Positions 27,966 through 40,167 of a DNA stretch of 40,871 bases are shown here, one piece after another. How positions within the stretch are numbered: the stretch's first letter is position 1; every line of letters starts with the position of its first letter. This DNA is from a virus: the IMG/VR virus record IMGVR_UViG_3300043449_001629, positions 1 to 40,871 of that record; one strand, given 5' to 3'. The position numbers and the translations under genes were made by a program. Under the pieces are notes generated by a model. That model ran no database searches. It had not been told where the DNA came from and saw only the letters and a program-made list of their open reading frames with translations.

Positions 27966-28781
27966 TTAATTGTTTTTTACTAATTGGTCTAGCTTTCTGA
28001 GATCAGTTAAGATACGTTTGGCATCTTTAATATGTATCATATTAGCCCCGTCGCTAGGAGCACGATCTGGATCCTCATGCATTTCCATAAAGAGACCAGC
28101 AACCCCTATAGCACAAGCAGCCTTAGCTAATGGATAAACCATGCGACGATCGCCGCCGCTGTTTTCTCCATTAACACTAGGACGTTGTACAGAATGGGTA
28201 GCATCAAAAATTACAGGATAGCCTGTTTCTTTCATAATTTCTAGTCCGCGAAAATCAACAACAAGGTTGTTATATCCAAAACTAGTTCCGCGCTCACATA
28301 ACATAATATTTTCATTACCTGTACTGGCAATTTTAGCAGCAACATTTTTCATATCATGTGGTGCAAGAAACTGACCTTTCTTAACATTAACTGTTCTTCC
28401 GGAATTTCCACAAGCAAGTAACAAATCCGTCTGTCTGCAAAGAAACGCAGGAATCTGTATAATGTCTGCAACATGTTTAACCTGGTCAACTTGCCAAACT
28501 TCATGAACGTCTGTTAGTATTGGAAGATCATGTTCTTTCTTAATCTCAAGTAGGATATCTAACCCTTGCTCAATACCGATACCACGCTTGCCGTTAATGC
28601 TGCTACGATTAGCTTTATCAAAACTGCTTTTGTAAATGAGCTTAATGTCTATCTCTTTACAAATTTCTTTAATAGCAGCCGCGGTGTAGTGAGCATGATC
28701 CCTGCTCTCAATCTGACAAGGACCTGCTATGAGAATAAATGGTAGAGAATTATCTACTGGAGTACCATGGATATTAATCAA
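27966..28781 (-). CDS. kdsA: 3-deoxy-8-phosphooctulonate synthase (KDO-8-P synthase)
   Basis: 271 residues if started at TTG 28781, which has AGGGAGG 9 nt upstream; a GTG at 28808 lacks a ribosome site. Motifs match the family: GPCQIES (20-26), KSSFDKANRSS (51-61), ILTDVHE, FLCRQTDLL, CERGTSFGYNNLVVDFRG and FDATHSVQRP. It condenses phosphoenolpyruvate with arabinose-5-phosphate to make KDO-8-P for LPS inner core. It overlaps the QueD-like gene by 8 bp and precedes the glycosyltransferase-like frame, which together suggest LPS alteration. Full length, with no missing catalytic residue seen. Confidence 0.95.
   Translation of the reverse strand: MINIHGTPVDNSLPFILIAGPCQIESRDHAHYTAAAIKEICKEIDIKLIYKSSFDKANRSSINGKRGIGIEQGLDILLEIKKEHDLPILTDVHEVWQVDQVKHVADIIQIPAFLCRQTDLLLACGNSGRTVNVKKGQFLAPHDMKNVAAKIASTGNENIMLCERGTSFGYNNLVVDFRGLEIMKETGYPVIFDATHSVQRPSVNGENSGGDRRMVYPLAKAACAIGVAGLFMEMHEDPDRAPSDGANMIHIKDAKRILTDLRKLDQLVKNN
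27972..27978 (-). promoter_or_regulatory. possible -1 frameshift heptamer A AAA AAC
   Basis: On the minus strand the heptamer is in the kdsA zero frame (GTA AAA AAC AAT TAA). A -1 slip skips the kdsA stop and enters the glycosyltransferase frame. A six-pair TTGCCT/GGGCAA hairpin lies about 25 nt downstream, further than usual. Confidence 0.35.
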
Positions 28782-29250
28782 ACTCTTTATCCTCCCTATG
28801 TCCGACACGCATAGCCATGTTGGAATCTGTTTCGCGAACTTCTACCTTGCAGCACCAAATACGTGCAGCTTCTTCTGCTCCATAATTGGGAAGAAAGATT
28901 GTATTAACGTATTCGTATAAAAAGTCCGCTAAACCCTCGCAACCAGTCTTTTCAACCTCCGTGATTTTTGCAAGCCCTAGCGTACCGAGTCGCAATAGTT
29001 CATCACGCTTTGGGTCGTCTTGTGCAACTAACAACGTATGGTCAAACCAATCTTCTAGCAATGCTTTTAGTGGTTTCAGGCCGCCGAAGTCCATGCACCA
29101 GTTACGAGCGTCTAGCGTATCGCACTCAAACTCAAAATGAAAGCTGAGTGCATATCCGTGTACTAAACGACAGTGACTATCAGCCCGCCACTGTCTATAG
29201 GCTACAGGTCCTATCTGTCTATATGTTTTTGTTGAAATGTATTTTGTCAT
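28774..29250 (-). CDS. 6-pyruvoyl-tetrahydropterin synthase/QueD-like protein
   Basis: 158 residues from ATG 29250, with GAGGA 7 nt upstream. Family features: SHCRLVHGYALSF (expected CxxxHGH), a WFDHTLLV motif with the catalytic Asp-His pair, and VEVRETDSNMA with the pterin-binding Glu. The second His of HGH is Tyr here, so one expected zinc ligand is altered. QueD makes carboxytetrahydropterin on the queuosine or archaeosine pathway. No other pathway gene is in this window, so it may act on pterins differently or complement host enzymes. The promoter at 29277-29304 serves it. Confidence 0.75.
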   Translation of the reverse strand: MTKYISTKTYRQIGPVAYRQWRADSHCRLVHGYALSFHFEFECDTLDARNWCMDFGGLKPLKALLEDWFDHTLLVAQDDPKRDELLRLGTLGLAKITEVEKTGCEGLADFLYEYVNTIFLPNYGAEEAARIWCCKVEVRETDSNMAMRVGHREDKEFD

Positions 29251-32916: not shown

Positions 32917-32992
32917 TGGTAGTCGGTGACGGGTTCGAACCGCCGACATTCACGGTGTAAACGTGACGCTCTACCAACTGAGCTAACCGACC
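32917..32992 (-). tRNA. tRNA-Val (anticodon TAC)
   Basis: Full cloverleaf: acceptor GGTCGGT/ACCGACT with a G1-U72 wobble, D-arm GCTC...GAGC, anticodon loop reading TTTACAC with TAC, T-arm GGTTCGAAC, and an encoded 3' ACCA. It reads GUA and other valine codons. CTAAATA lies 6 nt before its 5' end. Confidence 0.93.
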
Positions 32993-32998
32993 ATAACA

Positions 32999-33005
32999 TA
33001 TTTAG
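32999..33005 (-). promoter_or_regulatory. CTAAATA late-type element before tRNA-Val
   Basis: Exactly 6 nt separate the element from the mature tRNA 5' end. It partly overlaps the inverted repeat after the outer-membrane protein gene. Confidence 0.35.
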
Positions 33006-33029
33006 TGAGTAGCTCGTAAGCTACTCACT
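33004..33029 (-). terminator. strong hairpin after the outer-membrane protein gene
   Basis: AGTGAGTAGCT and AGCTACTCACT pair perfectly (11 bp) with a 4-nt loop. There is no U-run on the minus strand, so it may act as a processing or attenuation hairpin more than a classic terminator. Confidence 0.5.
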
Positions 33030-33037
33030 CTTTTGAA

Positions 33038-33832
33038 TTAGTACTTAGCGAGCGTAGGAAGCAAGTCGCTAGTATTAAAGTGATAGTTAACACCTGCACG
33101 AACAGTATTGAAACGTGTGTTGTTGTTAACATTGTTGAGCCCAAACCCAGCATTAGTTACGCTGTTGTTGCTGCCGCTAAGATCGGTATAAAGATACTCT
33201 GCCTTAGCCGACCAAGCCGGAGTGAACTTGTACTCAACACCACCACCAGCGGTCCAGCCAGTCTGCATAGCGTTTGACGAAACGAAAGTACCGTTACGCG
33301 AAACATCGCCATAAGCAAAACCACCAGTACCATAAACCATAAGAGCCGGAGTAAGCGGAACAATACCAACTCGACCACGAACAGTACCGAACCAATTGAT
33401 ATTAGTTCCACCGGTATAACCAGCAATCGTGTTCGGATAAAGTCCACCAATGTAAGCAACATTGGAAGCAGCGTTCTGTCCACTGCTCATTGAAGTGCCC
33501 TGGAAATCGGTCTCAGCGCCGACAACTAGCCACGGATTAACCTGATAGTTGTAACCGACCTGCACACCGCCAACAACGCCGGCGTTACCGTTACTGTTGT
33601 TAAGTCCCCAAGTCGTGCTAGACATATTAACGGGATCATAGGCCCAAACACTACCATTGCCGTTGGACTTCCAACCAGCGCCGATATTAGCACCTAGATA
33701 AGCACCCTGCCAAAGCATGATAGGAGCCGGAGCCACATAAGCCGGAGCGGACTTGCGTGACGGTAGGTCAGCAGCAAAGGCCGATCCAATTAGTGCAGCC
33801 GAAGCAAGCACAGTAGCGATAATCTTCTTCAT
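33038..33832 (-). CDS. outer-membrane beta-barrel protein (Omp25/RopB-like), host-type
   Basis: 264 residues from ATG 33832 with GAGGAG upstream. The signal peptide MKKIIATVLASAALIGSAFA is followed by ADLPSRKSAPAYVAPAP, a hallmark start of alphaproteobacterial Omp25/31 (RopB-like) barrels, then GAYLGANIGAGWKSNG. Paired beta-strands follow (VQVGYNYQVNPWLVVGAETD, RVGIVPLTPALMVYGTGGFA, AKAEYLYTDL) ending in TVRAGVNYHF with the C-terminal Phe of barrels. Host copies form small porin or opacity proteins. A phage copy could alter the host surface, for example masking receptors. It looks acquired from a Hyphomicrobiales host. Confidence 0.88.
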   Translation of the reverse strand: MKKIIATVLASAALIGSAFAADLPSRKSAPAYVAPAPIMLWQGAYLGANIGAGWKSNGNGSVWAYDPVNMSSTTWGLNNSNGNAGVVGGVQVGYNYQVNPWLVVGAETDFQGTSMSSGQNAASNVAYIGGLYPNTIAGYTGGTNINWFGTVRGRVGIVPLTPALMVYGTGGFAYGDVSRNGTFVSSNAMQTGWTAGGGVEYKFTPAWSAKAEYLYTDLSGSNNSVTNAGFGLNNVNNNTRFNTVRAGVNYHFNTSDLLPTLAKY

Positions 33833-33863
33833 ATAACATCTCCTCTGTGTTGTTAATAAGTGT

Positions 33864-33892
33864 AAGTTAGCAGACGAAGTGTCTGCTGTCAA
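33864..33892 (-). promoter_or_regulatory. sigma70-type promoter with palindromic spacer
   Basis: TTGACA (33887-33892), 17 nt, TAACTT (33864-33869). The spacer is filled by a perfect 7-bp inverted repeat AGCAGAC-gaagt-GTCTGCT (33869-33887). The layout is the same as before the 414-residue gene, with a different repeat sequence. Confidence 0.65.
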
Positions 33893-33949
33893 TGTCTTAT
33901 TTGCTAACTTTGTTGTCTTTGTTATAGGTGTTGCAGATATCACACAATT

Positions 33950-34417
33950 TTAAGTACAGGTAAATCTACCCTTTTTGTAGTCTTGGTAAAGACTTGTTTT
34001 CTTTACATTACAAAGTTGGCAGAGTGTTTGAATGTTTTCTTTACAATCAGTGCCTCCGTCAACTCTTCGTAGAATGTGATCTGCAACCATTGTCGACCGT
34101 TGCGCCCTAAGTTTGTGAGCCGCATTCTTAAATGGAACAGGTGGATTTTCAAACCATGGATCAGTAAGTGGAGAATAGCCACACCAATCGCAAGTCCATT
34201 CTCTAGAGAATGTCCAAAGTCTATTAGCCTTGCCGACGCCACCGTATTCTACCTGTTGTATCTGATGTTTACGGCATAACTTATTTTGTCCTGGGCCTTT
34301 AAACAAAGTTAAAGGCTCATTACAATCCGGATGTGAACATCTCTTGTCTTCTTGTAACTGTTTAGCAATAACTCCCGGTGACTTAAACTGATCGTTTTCG
34401 GGCAATCTAATCGACAT
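33950..34417 (-). CDS. HNH endonuclease
   Basis: 155 residues. Its ATG directly follows the stop of the ParB-like gene. The N-terminal zinc part (CSHPDCNEPLTLFKG, LCRKHQ) is followed by CDWCGY and the HNH core MVADHILRRVDGGTDCKENI then QTLCQLCNVKKT, where DH and N are catalytic and CxxC pairs bind zinc. HNH enzymes nick or cut DNA, and phage copies are often mobile homing enzymes. Close coupling to the ParB-like gene suggests a two-gene unit. Confidence 0.88.
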   Translation of the reverse strand: MSIRLPENDQFKSPGVIAKQLQEDKRCSHPDCNEPLTLFKGPGQNKLCRKHQIQQVEYGGVGKANRLWTFSREWTCDWCGYSPLTDPWFENPPVPFKNAAHKLRAQRSTMVADHILRRVDGGTDCKENIQTLCQLCNVKKTSLYQDYKKGRFTCT

Positions 34418-35557
34418 TTAGATAAGATCTTCTTCTGGAACAATCCATAGCGGATTGCTAAGAACAGGAACAGGTCCACTAAAGTTCTTTCTAACCTGTT
34501 CCAGTAGGAACGTTACGCCAATTCTTTTTTCAGGATAGCTAATGCCCAACAATGTGTTATCGTTATTCGGCTTGTTAATCCTAAACCAATCCTGCCAGCT
34601 CTTAGTAGCAACTTCGTACAATTCGTTAGCATCGAAATCATCATTAAATGCCGTTCGGAGGCTATTTGCTACTCCACGGATATAAGCATCGTCTATGACA
34701 ATTCCTGCTTCCTCACAAATACGAAAATATTCATACATCATCCAACTTTCCTTAGGAGAGACAGGCCTTGAGCTATTGCAAACATACATAAAGTATTTGC
34801 AAAAATGCTGCGTAATAGAAAGGTCATATCTCCTATGAGTAAACTCAGTAAGAACAGTTAGTGCGCCGGGCTTATTTGTGTCGCCAAACTTAGTGTTAGT
34901 CGCAAACATCTTCGCATTTTCTAAAGCCGTCTGCTTCTGTTCAGCAATCTTCCATTCTTCGATCTCGGCGCCGTCTGTGCGAACACCGAATACCATCTGG
35001 TGAAACAGATCGATAGCATCTAGAGGCTTTTTATCTGTACCATTTAGATAGATAAAGTTAAGACGCATTTCACTCTTCATGCTGCTAGGATAGATATTAA
35101 TAGGAACTTCACACTTCTTAATATCTAAGTTTAGAATTCTAGTCGCGATTACCAACAAAACTATAGCCGTATGCTGACCATCCCAACACACGTAATTACC
35201 AGGTGAGTTAGGGTCTTCATACACACTAATAGGCATAACTTCGATAGTGCGAAACTTGCGCAGGATTGAACTTGCATGTAGCAAGTCTAAGAGTCTCTGC
35301 AAAGTAGTATCGATGATAATCTTATCTAAAGTTGTAGACTGCGCCTTACAGAACTGCATCTGTTCCCAATGTGTAAGGTTAGAGTACCGCCGACGAAATT
35401 CATCTTCAGATGCTTCGAGCGCTCTCTTTGACCAGTTATCAGAAAGATTTTCTTTCAAACGAGCCTTTAATGATACATAGTGACTTTCGGTTTGATTAAA
35501 CTGTTCATTCACAATATCTGCATAAGTCTGTGTAGAAGGAATTAAATTCATAACCAT
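34418..35557 (-). CDS. ParB/Srx-like domain protein
   Basis: 379 residues from ATG 35557 with AGGG upstream. The central part (PISVYEDPNSPGNYVCWDGQ then HTAIVLL) matches the ParB/sulfiredoxin fold, in which the DGQHR-like motif binds nucleotide. Predicted helical domains surround it. Its stop abuts the HNH gene start. Partition is unlikely for a virus of this type; such proteins may act as nucleases or regulators. A promoter lies upstream. Family membership is by motif only. Confidence 0.65.
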   Translation of the reverse strand: MVMNLIPSTQTYADIVNEQFNQTESHYVSLKARLKENLSDNWSKRALEASEDEFRRRYSNLTHWEQMQFCKAQSTTLDKIIIDTTLQRLLDLLHASSILRKFRTIEVMPISVYEDPNSPGNYVCWDGQHTAIVLLVIATRILNLDIKKCEVPINIYPSSMKSEMRLNFIYLNGTDKKPLDAIDLFHQMVFGVRTDGAEIEEWKIAEQKQTALENAKMFATNTKFGDTNKPGALTVLTEFTHRRYDLSITQHFCKYFMYVCNSSRPVSPKESWMMYEYFRICEEAGIVIDDAYIRGVANSLRTAFNDDFDANELYEVATKSWQDWFRINKPNNDNTLLGISYPEKRIGVTFLLEQVRKNFSGPVPVLSNPLWIVPEEDLI

Positions 35558-35596
35558 TTCGTTTTCCCTATTAGGTTAAAGATACTCACAATTATA

Positions 35597-35624
35597 ACTA
35601 TACAACAGAAGTCGTAATTGTCAA
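35597..35624 (-). promoter_or_regulatory. sigma70-type promoter for ParB-like/HNH pair
   Basis: TTGACA (35619-35624), 16 nt, TATAGT (35597-35602). A TATAAT 6 nt further downstream is an alternative -10 with poor spacing. Confidence 0.5.
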
Positions 35625-35655
35625 CTCAGATTAAAGATTCTATTGGAAAGTTTCT

Positions 35656-35730
35656 TGGAGCGGGTGATGAGGATCGAACTCACGACTTCAACTTTGGCAA
35701 AGTTGCGCTCTACCACTGAGCTACACCCGC
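35656..35730 (-). tRNA. tRNA-Gly (anticodon GCC)
   Basis: Acceptor GCGGGTG/CACCCGC pairs perfectly. D-arm GCTC...GAGC, anticodon loop with GCC, T-arm AGTTCGATC and encoded 3' TCCA are present. A CTAAATA element lies 7 nt before the 5' end. Confidence 0.93.
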
Positions 35731-35737
35731 ATATTTT

Positions 35738-35744
35738 TATTTAG
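35738..35744 (-). promoter_or_regulatory. CTAAATA late-type element before tRNA-Gly
   Basis: The element overlaps the stop codon of the secreted proline-rich gene and stands 7 nt upstream of the tRNA 5' end. Confidence 0.3.
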
Positions 35745-36058
35745 TATAGTGGTACTGGGTAAGGTGCCGGAACAGGATAAGGAACAGCATAAGGCTGAGG
35801 TACTGGATAAGGTATTGGACGGTCAACTGGCACTGGATAAGGCTCAGGAACGGGCACTTCTACAACAACCGGCGGAGCCTGCACAACTACAGGCTGCGGT
35901 GGAGGAGCAGCATAACACGGCTGTCCAAAAATACTATCCATAACAGAAGTTAGTGGATCCAGATACGTGCAATGGTAATTTCCATATCCATCATACCATG
36001 CATAAGCAGGAGACGACATCCCGATAACAAGGGCGGTACTAATCAGTAATTTCTTCAT
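35741..36058 (-). CDS. small secreted Pro/Val/Tyr-rich protein
   Basis: 105 residues from ATG 36058, 6 nt after AAGGAG. Signal peptide MKKLLISTALVIGMSSPAYA with a likely cut before WYDGYGN. Two cysteines follow (YHCTYLDPL and GQPCYAA), then repeats of the form PVPYPVP (PVVVQAPPVVVEVPVPEPYP, YPVPVDRPIPYPVPQPYAVP). Such tails are extended and may span the periplasm or bind the wall. The signal and start (SPAYAWYDGYG) resemble the partial protein at the end of the window (SPANAWYRGYG). Confidence 0.75.
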   Translation of the reverse strand: MKKLLISTALVIGMSSPAYAWYDGYGNYHCTYLDPLTSVMDSIFGQPCYAAPPPQPVVVQAPPVVVEVPVPEPYPVPVDRPIPYPVPQPYAVPYPVPAPYPVPLY

Positions 36059-36074
36059 CTTCATCTCCTTAGTT

Positions 36075-36148
36075 TGGCTGGGGTACAAGGATTCGAACCT
36101 CGATAGACGGAATCAAAATCCGTAGTCCTACCATTAGACGATACCCCA
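36075..36148 (-). tRNA. tRNA-Gln (anticodon TTG)
   Basis: Acceptor TGGGGTA/TACCCCA (U1-A72, as usual for Gln), D-arm CGTC...GAC type, anticodon loop TTTTGAT containing TTG, T-arm GGTTCGAATC and encoded GCCA. Confidence 0.92.
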
Positions 36149-36175
36149 AAAACCTTTACAAACTATATATGTAAA

Positions 36176-36251
36176 TGGTAGACCCTGCCGGGTTCGAACC
36201 GGCGACAAACGGATTAAAAGTCCGCTGCTCTACCTACTGAGCTAAGGGTCC
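36176..36251 (-). tRNA. tRNA-Lys (anticodon TTT)
   Basis: Acceptor GGACCCT/AGGGTCT with a terminal G1-U72 wobble, D-arm GCTC...GAGC, anticodon loop CTTTTAA with TTT, T-arm GGTTCGAACC, encoded ACCA. Confidence 0.93.
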
Positions 36252-36258
36252 AAAAACT

Positions 36259-36450
36259 TTATCGAACTAGCGGAAGTTTGGTAGCTTCCTTAAGGAGGAC
36301 AATGAGGTCCTCAACATCCGTTACAATCGTCTTAGAAGTGATCCAATCTTCCTCAGCGTTCTGCCCGGACACTTCAATCATAAAACCATTATCGTAACGG
36401 TAAATGGTGATGCTCTCATCGACTTTAGCGAGTTCTTTAACTGATGCCAT
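36259..36450 (-). CDS. small acidic protein between tRNAs
   Basis: 63 residues from ATG 36450 (MASVKELAKVDESITIYRYD), with AAAGG upstream. Strands YRYDNGFMIEVSG and a helix VEDLIVLLKEATKLP give a compact beta-alpha appearance. It lies between the tRNA-Lys and tRNA-Leu genes. Function unknown; a small regulator is possible. Confidence 0.5.
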   Translation of the reverse strand: MASVKELAKVDESITIYRYDNGFMIEVSGQNAEEDWITSKTIVTDVEDLIVLLKEATKLPLVR

Positions 36451-36490
36451 TTTGTTGCCTTTCATATAGTTTTGGTAATTCCTTAAAGTT

Positions 36491-36575
36491 TGGTACCCCT
36501 GGAGAGACTTGAACTCCCACTCCTCACAGAACTAGATCCTAAGTCTAGCGTGTCTACCAATTCCACCACAGGGGC
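36491..36575 (-). tRNA. tRNA-Leu (anticodon TAG)
   Basis: Class II tRNA of 85 nt with encoded CCA. Acceptor GCCCCTG/CAGGGGT with a G1-U72 wobble, D-arm GGTGGAATTGGTAGACAC, anticodon TAG, a long variable arm, T-arm AGTTCAAGTCT. Confidence 0.92.
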
Positions 36576-36586
36576 AAACTTTATTT

Positions 36587-37039
36587 TTATACTATACTGC
36601 AACCGTCGGTTTTTGTCAAGTGCTTCTGTTTAATTGCTTCGGATATTTTCTTTCGATGTTCTTCGGATTTTGGTTTCCCTAAATTCGCTTTCCCACCGGC
36701 AGCTTTGTTTCCTCTTGCCTGTTTTCTTCTTGCCTCTTCTAAACCGTACTTATCTACCATTCTTTCCCAAATCGACTTGCCGCCATTACTGTCGGCATCT
36801 TTTTTATTTTCTGAAGCAGTTCCCCAATATAAATGATTTGGGTTGCTGCATTTTCCGTTGTGGCAAGCATGACAAACGTGTATCATTTTACCCGACGGAA
36901 TTGTTGTTTCATGTAAATGAGCTAACAACCCTTTAAGGTACATGCTTTGCCCACCGCGTTCTAAACAAGGCTCATCGAGCCTTAAGTGTTTTTGTCTTTC
37001 CTCTTTAGGAAGTAGAATGTATTCTTCTATTTTCTTCAT
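36587..37039 (-). CDS. HNH homing endonuclease-like protein with NUMOD3 tail
   Basis: 150 residues from ATG 37039. HNH-type core HVCHACHNGKCSNPNHLYWG then TASENKKDA, with a zinc-like CHxCHNGxC and the NPNHL motif of phage HNH_3 enzymes. The C-terminus (KPKSEEHRKKISEAIKQKH) is a NUMOD3 DNA-binding motif typical of homing endonucleases. It sits among tRNAs and small exported genes with no intron visible, so it is probably a free-standing homing enzyme. Confidence 0.85.
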   Translation of the reverse strand: MKKIEEYILLPKEERQKHLRLDEPCLERGGQSMYLKGLLAHLHETTIPSGKMIHVCHACHNGKCSNPNHLYWGTASENKKDADSNGGKSIWERMVDKYGLEEARRKQARGNKAAGGKANLGKPKSEEHRKKISEAIKQKHLTKTDGCSIV

Positions 37040-37043
37040 AAAG

Positions 37044-37050
37044 TATTTAG
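37044..37050 (-). promoter_or_regulatory. CTAAATA late-type element
   Basis: GCTAAATA followed by CTTT and the ATG of the NUMOD3 HNH gene, the same layout as before the 127-residue gene at 32901. Confidence 0.35.
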
Positions 37051-37074
37051 CACTAAACACACAGACCAACGTGT

Positions 37075-38808: not shown

Positions 38809-38854
38809 TGCGTTTCTCCATATACTGTAATTAGTTTTTTGGAGAAGAGGTCAC

Positions 38855-38875
38855 AAAAAAAGCCCCTTGCGGGGC
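38855..38875 (-). terminator. intrinsic terminator with GCAA loop
   Basis: On the minus strand GCCCC-GCAA-GGGGC is followed by seven T. It is a canonical intrinsic terminator and ends the structured RNA. A 60-codon frame (38851-39033) reads straight through it and is therefore not accepted as a gene. Confidence 0.9.
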
Positions 38876-39212
38876 CGTTTTGCAGACGCTGAGATTACAC
38901 GCCTTGTATTAGTGCCTCGGACATTATCGCCAGCCTTGCGAGCTGCTTTCTTCCGACATCCACTACATGCCTTTCGGTCATATAGTCCACTAACAATGTC
39001 GCCGTTTTTAAAGTCAGGCAGTAGACTTGTCATTGAATGCTATTCTACACCATCCATTCCGTTTGCCTTGCGAGCAATTCACAGTCGCTAAACTGTTACG
39101 AACCCCCAGGTATAAACTAACTAGGCCTTGCGAGCTTTGTTAGGCTTGATTAGCTTTCGCTTCAAGCATTAGACACCTTTCACATTCAACCGAGGCAGGC
39201 TTTGCGTTTTTA

Positions 39213-39284
39213 ATCAACAGAGGGAGTTGAACCCACTACCGATCGCTTCAAGCGCGATTGCTCTACCAAATGAGCTATGTTATG
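39213..39284 (-). tRNA. degenerate tRNA-like domain inside the large RNA (TTG in anticodon position)
   Basis: A cloverleaf can be drawn: acceptor CATAACA with TGTTGAT (five pairs, two mismatches at the tip), D-arm GCTC-ATTTGGTA-GAGC, anticodon stem ATCGC/GCGAT, T-loop TTCAACT with a stem mismatch. The anticodon loop is GCTTGAA, so position 33 is C where nearly all tRNAs have U. No CCA is encoded. It is more likely a structural tRNA mimic or relic than a working tRNA-Gln. Confidence 0.55.
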
Positions 39285-39778
39285 CAACCTACTGTGATGT
39301 GCTGCCTCAGTTGCTTCATACCTTGTTAGATACAAAATACAACACACCCCGTACCTTTCGTCTGCCGACTACTAAGTAGTTTTTCTCGACCTGTGTCCAT
39401 TGTCCACAGACCAATAAAACTGCATACCAGCTCTTGCTTGCGAGGCTCGAACCAATACGCTACCCTTTCCCATACTAGATAGCAAGTTGGTTTCGTTGTG
39501 AGGTCAGCACCACCTGTTACTCTCCGTTTGCTTGCGTTACCTTTGCAGGCGCTTGAGCAAACGTTCTTTCCACAACACTTGCGTCACTATTACCTCTACC
39601 CGTTGGAAGTAAAGGCTGGATTTCTCCAGTGAGCAGGCTTGCTTAGATGGACCAATTGCTTGGCGCTAGTATGTAGGCATTCTAGCTTTGGGTGCATCAC
39701 TGCACTTATCCTAATGGGGCTAAGCCCCCAATTCCTACAGTAAAAACAACTTGCGTTGTCCTTACTGCTTATTTTGTT

Positions 39779-39807
39779 AATATACAGTCTCTACTAATTC
39801 GTGTCAA
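39779..39807 (-). promoter_or_regulatory. near-consensus sigma70 promoter for the large RNA
   Basis: TTGACA (39802-39807), 17 nt, TATATT (39779-39784). Predicted start about 39772. No gene begins before 39034, so this promoter supports a non-coding transcript. Confidence 0.8.
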
Positions 39808-40083: not shown

Positions 40084-40167
40084 TGGCGGAGGGTAAAGGA
40101 ATCGAACCATCACCATTGCTGGGGCACGGTTTTCAAGACCGTTTGCACACCTTGTACGCTACCCTCC
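40084..40167 (-). tRNA. tRNA-Ser (anticodon TGA)
   Basis: Class II tRNA with encoded GCCA. Acceptor GGAGGGT/ACCCTCC, anticodon stem ACGGT/ACCGT with loop CTTGAAA (TGA), long variable arm CCCCA/TGGTG, and a T-arm with one mismatch. It starts 2 nt after the stop of the upstream gene, so it is co-transcribed with it. Confidence 0.9.

Follow-up and report, generated by a model that had tools for sequence, protein, structure and literature searches.

A GOLLD RNA gene with a degenerate tRNA-like linker in a virus genome fragment

What does a virus keep in more than 900 bp that carry no acceptable gene? We analysed a linear virus record of 40,871 bases (hereafter the window), which is a fragment, so that its gene density is judged on a fragment. 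For the gene-free stretch, the initial annotation had proposed a giant structured RNA of the GOLLD or ROOL type or, failing both, a new class; it had suggested a search with the large-RNA models of Rfam and a survey of covariation in relatives, and had named a conserved coding frame, or paired stems that are not conserved in relatives, as the outcomes that would speak against an RNA; neither was observed. The Rfam search returned GOLLD (RF02032) at 38886–39350 on the minus strand, over the complete model (1–416), with 197.2 bits and E=2.6e-54, well above the curated gathering cut-off of 150 bits; the match comprises the last 5′ stem, the linker and the conserved 3′ domain. ROOL was absent among the seven Rfam matches in the window, and no other large-RNA family reached its cut-off. 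We conclude that the stretch is the gene of a GOLLD RNA, which belongs to an established class of very large, folded phage RNAs. Of the three identities proposed, GOLLD stands, and ROOL, which gave no match, and a new class do not. Like GOLLD, ROOL is a giant phage RNA found near tRNA genes, and it builds a cage from RNA alone that has a linker in its interior (PMC12286853), but its sequence and fold are unrelated to those of the window RNA. All features of the RNA lie on the minus strand, which the initial annotation had given only within its proposed check.

Could the stretch instead be a decayed or unannotated protein-coding region in which hairpins are incidental? ORFs of 60 aa (38851–39033, minus strand) and 74 aa (38867–39091, plus strand) do exist. 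However, the longest stop-free runs sit at different places and in different frames across the relatives, and thus no conserved protein is encoded in the ~0.92 kb, as the initial annotation had expected. The substitutions are compensatory, and the E value of the GOLLD match also argues against a coding origin. Because of the covariation described below, the coding reading is already refuted, and we give it practically no credence.

The RNA appears to be made from its own transcription unit of ~918 nt (38855–39772), delimited by a promoter, a terminator, the Rfam match and full-length homologues over 38886–39731; at more than 800 nt from promoter to terminator, this single predicted unit has the length of a GOLLD RNA. 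The predicted sigma-70-type promoter, TTGACA-17-TATATT (39779–39807), agrees with the consensus at 11 of 12 positions, and would place the transcription start near 39772; 0.3% of shuffles yield an upstream site as good. In the nearest relative (L026), TTGACA-17-TATATT stands at the same place, and L082 has TTGACA-16-TATAAT; when promoters were sought in fixed upstream stretches, no convincing sigma-70 promoter was found in 5 of 9 relatives. At the other end lies a predicted intrinsic terminator, GGCCCC-GCAA-GGGGC followed by seven T (38855–38876), and L026 carries one of the same form at the same place with a different sequence (ACCCC-TTCG-GGGGT and a T-rich tail). The near-consensus promoter and GCAA-looped terminator of the initial annotation were thus both recovered, as were its GNRA-capped hairpins (GCAA several times, GAAA). 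One predicted hairpin of ~14 bp with a GCAA loop forms the 5′ leader (39737–39768); in the alignment its sequence is unconserved among relatives. The fold has a minimum free energy of −301 kcal/mol, a value that none of 20 dinucleotide shuffles attained (z=−3.4). In several relatives (L145, L082, L135 and L125) the GOLLD 3′ end is closely followed by a variable stretch enclosed between inverted repeats, TTCTAAAACACA ... TGTGTTTTAGAA or similar sequences. The window lacks these repeats, which could represent an additional outer stem or an alternative terminator.

To what extent is this fold shared? For the collection of relatives, GAAAGGTGNCTAATGC proved too short a pattern, with GOLLD in only 1 of 24 records; a pattern from the GOLLD 3′ end yielded 119 stretches of viral DNA. 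Among viral records with GOLLD patterns, 44 of the 46 tested scored above the GOLLD cut-off, against 0 of 14 control genomes. GOLLD was found in five named phages, above the cut-off in Phosso, DSS3_MAL1 and MD18 and below it in two Erythrobacter phages. Matches in Erwinia phage IT22 and Streptomyces phage BRock cover the tRNA-like part only and were set aside. Full-length relatives of the window RNA, in other viral contigs, are 66–80% identical to it. We aligned nine of them with the window (38886–39731), and the consensus fold of these ten sequences has 227 pairs, 141 of which show compensatory changes on both sides. The paired stems thus covary massively, not just in the 3′ half but also in the 5′ half, which lies outside the Rfam model, and the window RNA has the conserved, covarying 3′ domain of GOLLD.

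Mutual information computed over 66 3′ domains pointed to a further helix outside the nested fold, in which GGUGUC (39172–39177) pairs with GACAUU (38995–39000) over 6 bp within the 3′ domain. Five of its positions pair in 65/65 sequences and the sixth in 64/65; overall the helix is 98.2% paired, compared with at most 86.6% in 2000 shuffles, and pairing ends sharply on both flanks. This helix may be a published GOLLD pseudoknot, stem or contact, and we do not claim it as new. In GOLLD, bridge B8 involves a self-complementary dinucleotide in loop L21a. The hairpin that position arithmetic tentatively places at env-38 nt 656–657 has the loop UUUAGCGA (GC) in the window and a CGCAA-type loop (CG) in three relatives.

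The other half of the RNA is a separate, more variable structured 5′ domain (39286–39640), closed by a helix between AAGCCTGC (39640–39633) and GTAGGTT (39292–39286) that hardly varies; the domain rests on the covarying consensus fold and is of a subgroup-specific type. A covariance model of 138 nt of it (R1, 39455–39592) serves as a subgroup marker, with ~50 subgroup loci at E<1e-10 and 0 among the other GOLLD loci searched. One of the aligned relatives (L117:1607-2458) has the linker type and 3′ domain of the subgroup but a different sequence over much of its 5′ half, which points to modular exchange of segments within this half. Compared with the GOLLD of env-38, solved by cryo-EM (PMC12286853), the window RNA matches the whole RF02032 model, has a conserved 3′ domain, a variable 5′ domain and a linker between them, exceeds 800 nt, and lies in a phage genome near tRNA genes. 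It differs in its 5′ domain, whose type was not seen outside its own subgroup in the searched loci, and in its linker, a tRNA-like cloverleaf where env-38 has a 42-nt disordered loop.

The genomic surroundings fit a GOLLD gene. ARAGORN calls six tRNA genes at no more than 7 kb from the RNA, and tRNA genes are present on both of its sides (32917–36575 and 40084–40167), which bears out the location among tRNA genes given in the initial annotation. By their ClpA-like and PhoH-like proteins, the nearest named phages are jumbo phages (such as Phosso, Atu_ph07 and PA5oct, 43–54% identity), and of these Sinorhizobium phage Phosso also has GOLLD. The tRNA region includes a gene for an HNH/His-Me homing-endonuclease-like protein (36587–37069, minus strand), comparable to the co-occurrence of GOLLD and an HNH endonuclease in mycobacterial tRNA clusters (PMC9569102). 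An OmpA-like outer membrane beta-barrel protein (33038–33943, minus strand) is encoded beside the phage tRNA genes. Another gene of the window, which may be an auxiliary metabolic gene, encodes a DAHP synthetase I family protein (27966–28808, minus strand; PF00793, E=1.9e-71).

What, then, is the linker? The initial annotation had noted an embedded tRNA-like fold, and this fold is real: the Rfam tRNA model scores 40 bits at 39216–39281, and cloverleaf analysis delimits the linker at 39213–39284, one base after GTAGGTT. It has a 5-bp acceptor stem (positions 1 and 2 are mismatched), a D arm, an anticodon arm and a T arm with a mismatch. Its anticodon loop, GCTTGAA, carries the anticodon UUG behind C33 rather than U33, and positions 73–76 read TAAA instead of ending in CCA; ARAGORN makes no tRNA call at 39213–39284. 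The window linker is thus a degenerate tRNA mimic, typical of its subgroup. A pattern from the last 5′ stem retrieved 89 viral-contig stretches plus two from bacterial genomes (Thalassospira and Pseudaminobacter), and the cloverleaf is present in 61 of 69 unique linkers. Its pairing is retained at 95–100% in the D, anticodon and T arms, with heavy covariation, and at 92–95% for acceptor pairs 4–7, whereas acceptor pairs 1–3 are found at 46–52%, the chance level. In many relatives the outer acceptor strand lies within the GTAGGTT motif, which pairs with AAGCCTGC in the consensus fold. From these pairings, sharing of the strand with the closing helix would set the cloverleaf flush against that helix and leave it with a short stem.

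One explanation is that the cloverleaf is a real phage tRNA gene, with GOLLD acting as a long precursor from which the mature tRNA is cut. The intact D, anticodon and T arms would suit a tRNA, as would the embedded 7-nt anticodon loops (U33 in 50/52, A37 in 47/52), the conserved TTCRA of the T loop, the few copies with seven acceptor pairs and the position of GOLLD among tRNA genes. However, CCA occurs in 0 of 61 embedded cloverleaves versus 891 of 1016 free-standing tRNAs in the fetched loci, and a complete 7-bp acceptor stem in 6/47 versus 888/1016. The outer acceptor pairs are at chance and their strand often belongs to the motif that closes the 5′ domain, the window copy combines C33 with a T-stem mismatch, and excision would cut GOLLD in two. 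The cloverleaf is therefore unlikely to be a working tRNA, and the precursor explanation is in our view highly improbable. Two named phages, DSS3_MAL1 (L028:3059-3134) and MD18 (L029:3059-3134), have an annotated tRNA-Arg inside GOLLD, which corresponds to the embedded cloverleaf and is perhaps no working tRNA. A short distance downstream of GOLLD, both also carry a tmRNA gene in permuted form (L028:3547-3955 and L029:3701-4109; tag ANTNAAPMEMAIAA).

Alternatively, the linker fold could be leftover tRNA sequence that drifts in a tolerant site of GOLLD and has no role of its own. Consistent with drift, the linker is the variable, disordered part of env-38 (PMC12286853), the cloverleaf is missing from 8 of the 69 unique subgroup linkers, and the window copy is degenerate. 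Two loci (L105 and L107) have cores that are 99.6% identical and linkers that are only 64% identical, yet both linkers form cloverleaves. Persistence of the cloverleaf through linker replacement and anticodon turnover, with strongly covarying arms, argues against drift, and we consider a leftover without function possible but rather unlikely. Mapped onto a tree of the RNA core, the anticodon label requires 36 changes, compared with 42.0 for shuffled labels, and NUU-type anticodons nonetheless account for 39 of 52 embedded loops versus 7.6% of free-standing tRNAs from the same loci. Shared descent may explain part of this concentration, and the window copy (UUG, C33) is not of the NUU type.

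A third, more speculative explanation, in which we place still less confidence than in leftover sequence, is that the subgroup linker is a selected, non-translating tRNA mimic, present in many copies inside a cage, that captures or decoys a host factor with affinity for tRNA, for instance an anticodon nuclease, a synthetase, a modification enzyme or the ribosome. It is hinted at by arms that covary while the acceptor end is lost, by a cloverleaf that survives linker replacement, and by the prevalence of NUU despite the number of changes on the tree. Earlier papers already describe tRNAs and pseudo-tRNAs embedded in GOLLD. Phage tRNAs sometimes occur in the GOLLD linker (PMC12286853), and the predicted tRNA embedded in a mycobacterial GOLLD appears to be a pseudo-tRNA whose expression was not detected (PMC6582537). 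That RNA resembles ours in lying in a tRNA cluster with an apparent pseudo-tRNA embedded; it was reported for a mycobacterial tRNA cluster, whereas the degenerate cloverleaf of the virus subgroup studied here recurs, with covariation, in 61 unique linkers. What we add is a well-defined tRNA-mimic linker subgroup.

How might such an RNA act? In our preferred reading, which we hold with considerable though not full confidence, the locus is a GOLLD gene whose RNA is likely made during infection and accumulates as cages, with the cloverleaf as a non-decoding module of the lumen. The promoter and terminator would yield a ~0.92-kb RNA composed of the subgroup 5′ domain, the tRNA-like linker and the 3′ domain common to all GOLLD RNAs, and covarying helices hold all three parts. 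By analogy with env-38, which forms a D7 14-mer with its disordered linker inside (PMC12286853), copies of the RNA would fold and, with no protein involved, join into a closed cage that encloses the linker, although the oligomer size could differ from that of env-38 or the cage may not form. Production of the RNA during infection and its accumulation as cages are most likely by analogy; a GOLLD is reported to accumulate during lytic infection, and a GOLLD was also reported to be dispensable for phage production in L. brevis (PMC7567579). The tRNA-like linker would be a retained, folded module that fills or decorates the lumen without being released as a working tRNA. In pull-downs, ribosomes are reported to bind GOLLD (PMC12286853). 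Our best guess is that the cage sequesters a translation-related host component, and the cloverleaf might bind such a partner or replace tRNA towards it.

For annotation, these results carry a warning, since annotated tRNA genes in some phages, such as tRNA-Arg of DSS3_MAL1 and MD18, sit inside GOLLD RNA. Few known assemblies made of RNA alone are as large as GOLLD cages, and a subgroup with a conserved, probably non-decoding tRNA mimic facing inward would offer a concrete handle on the purpose of the cage.
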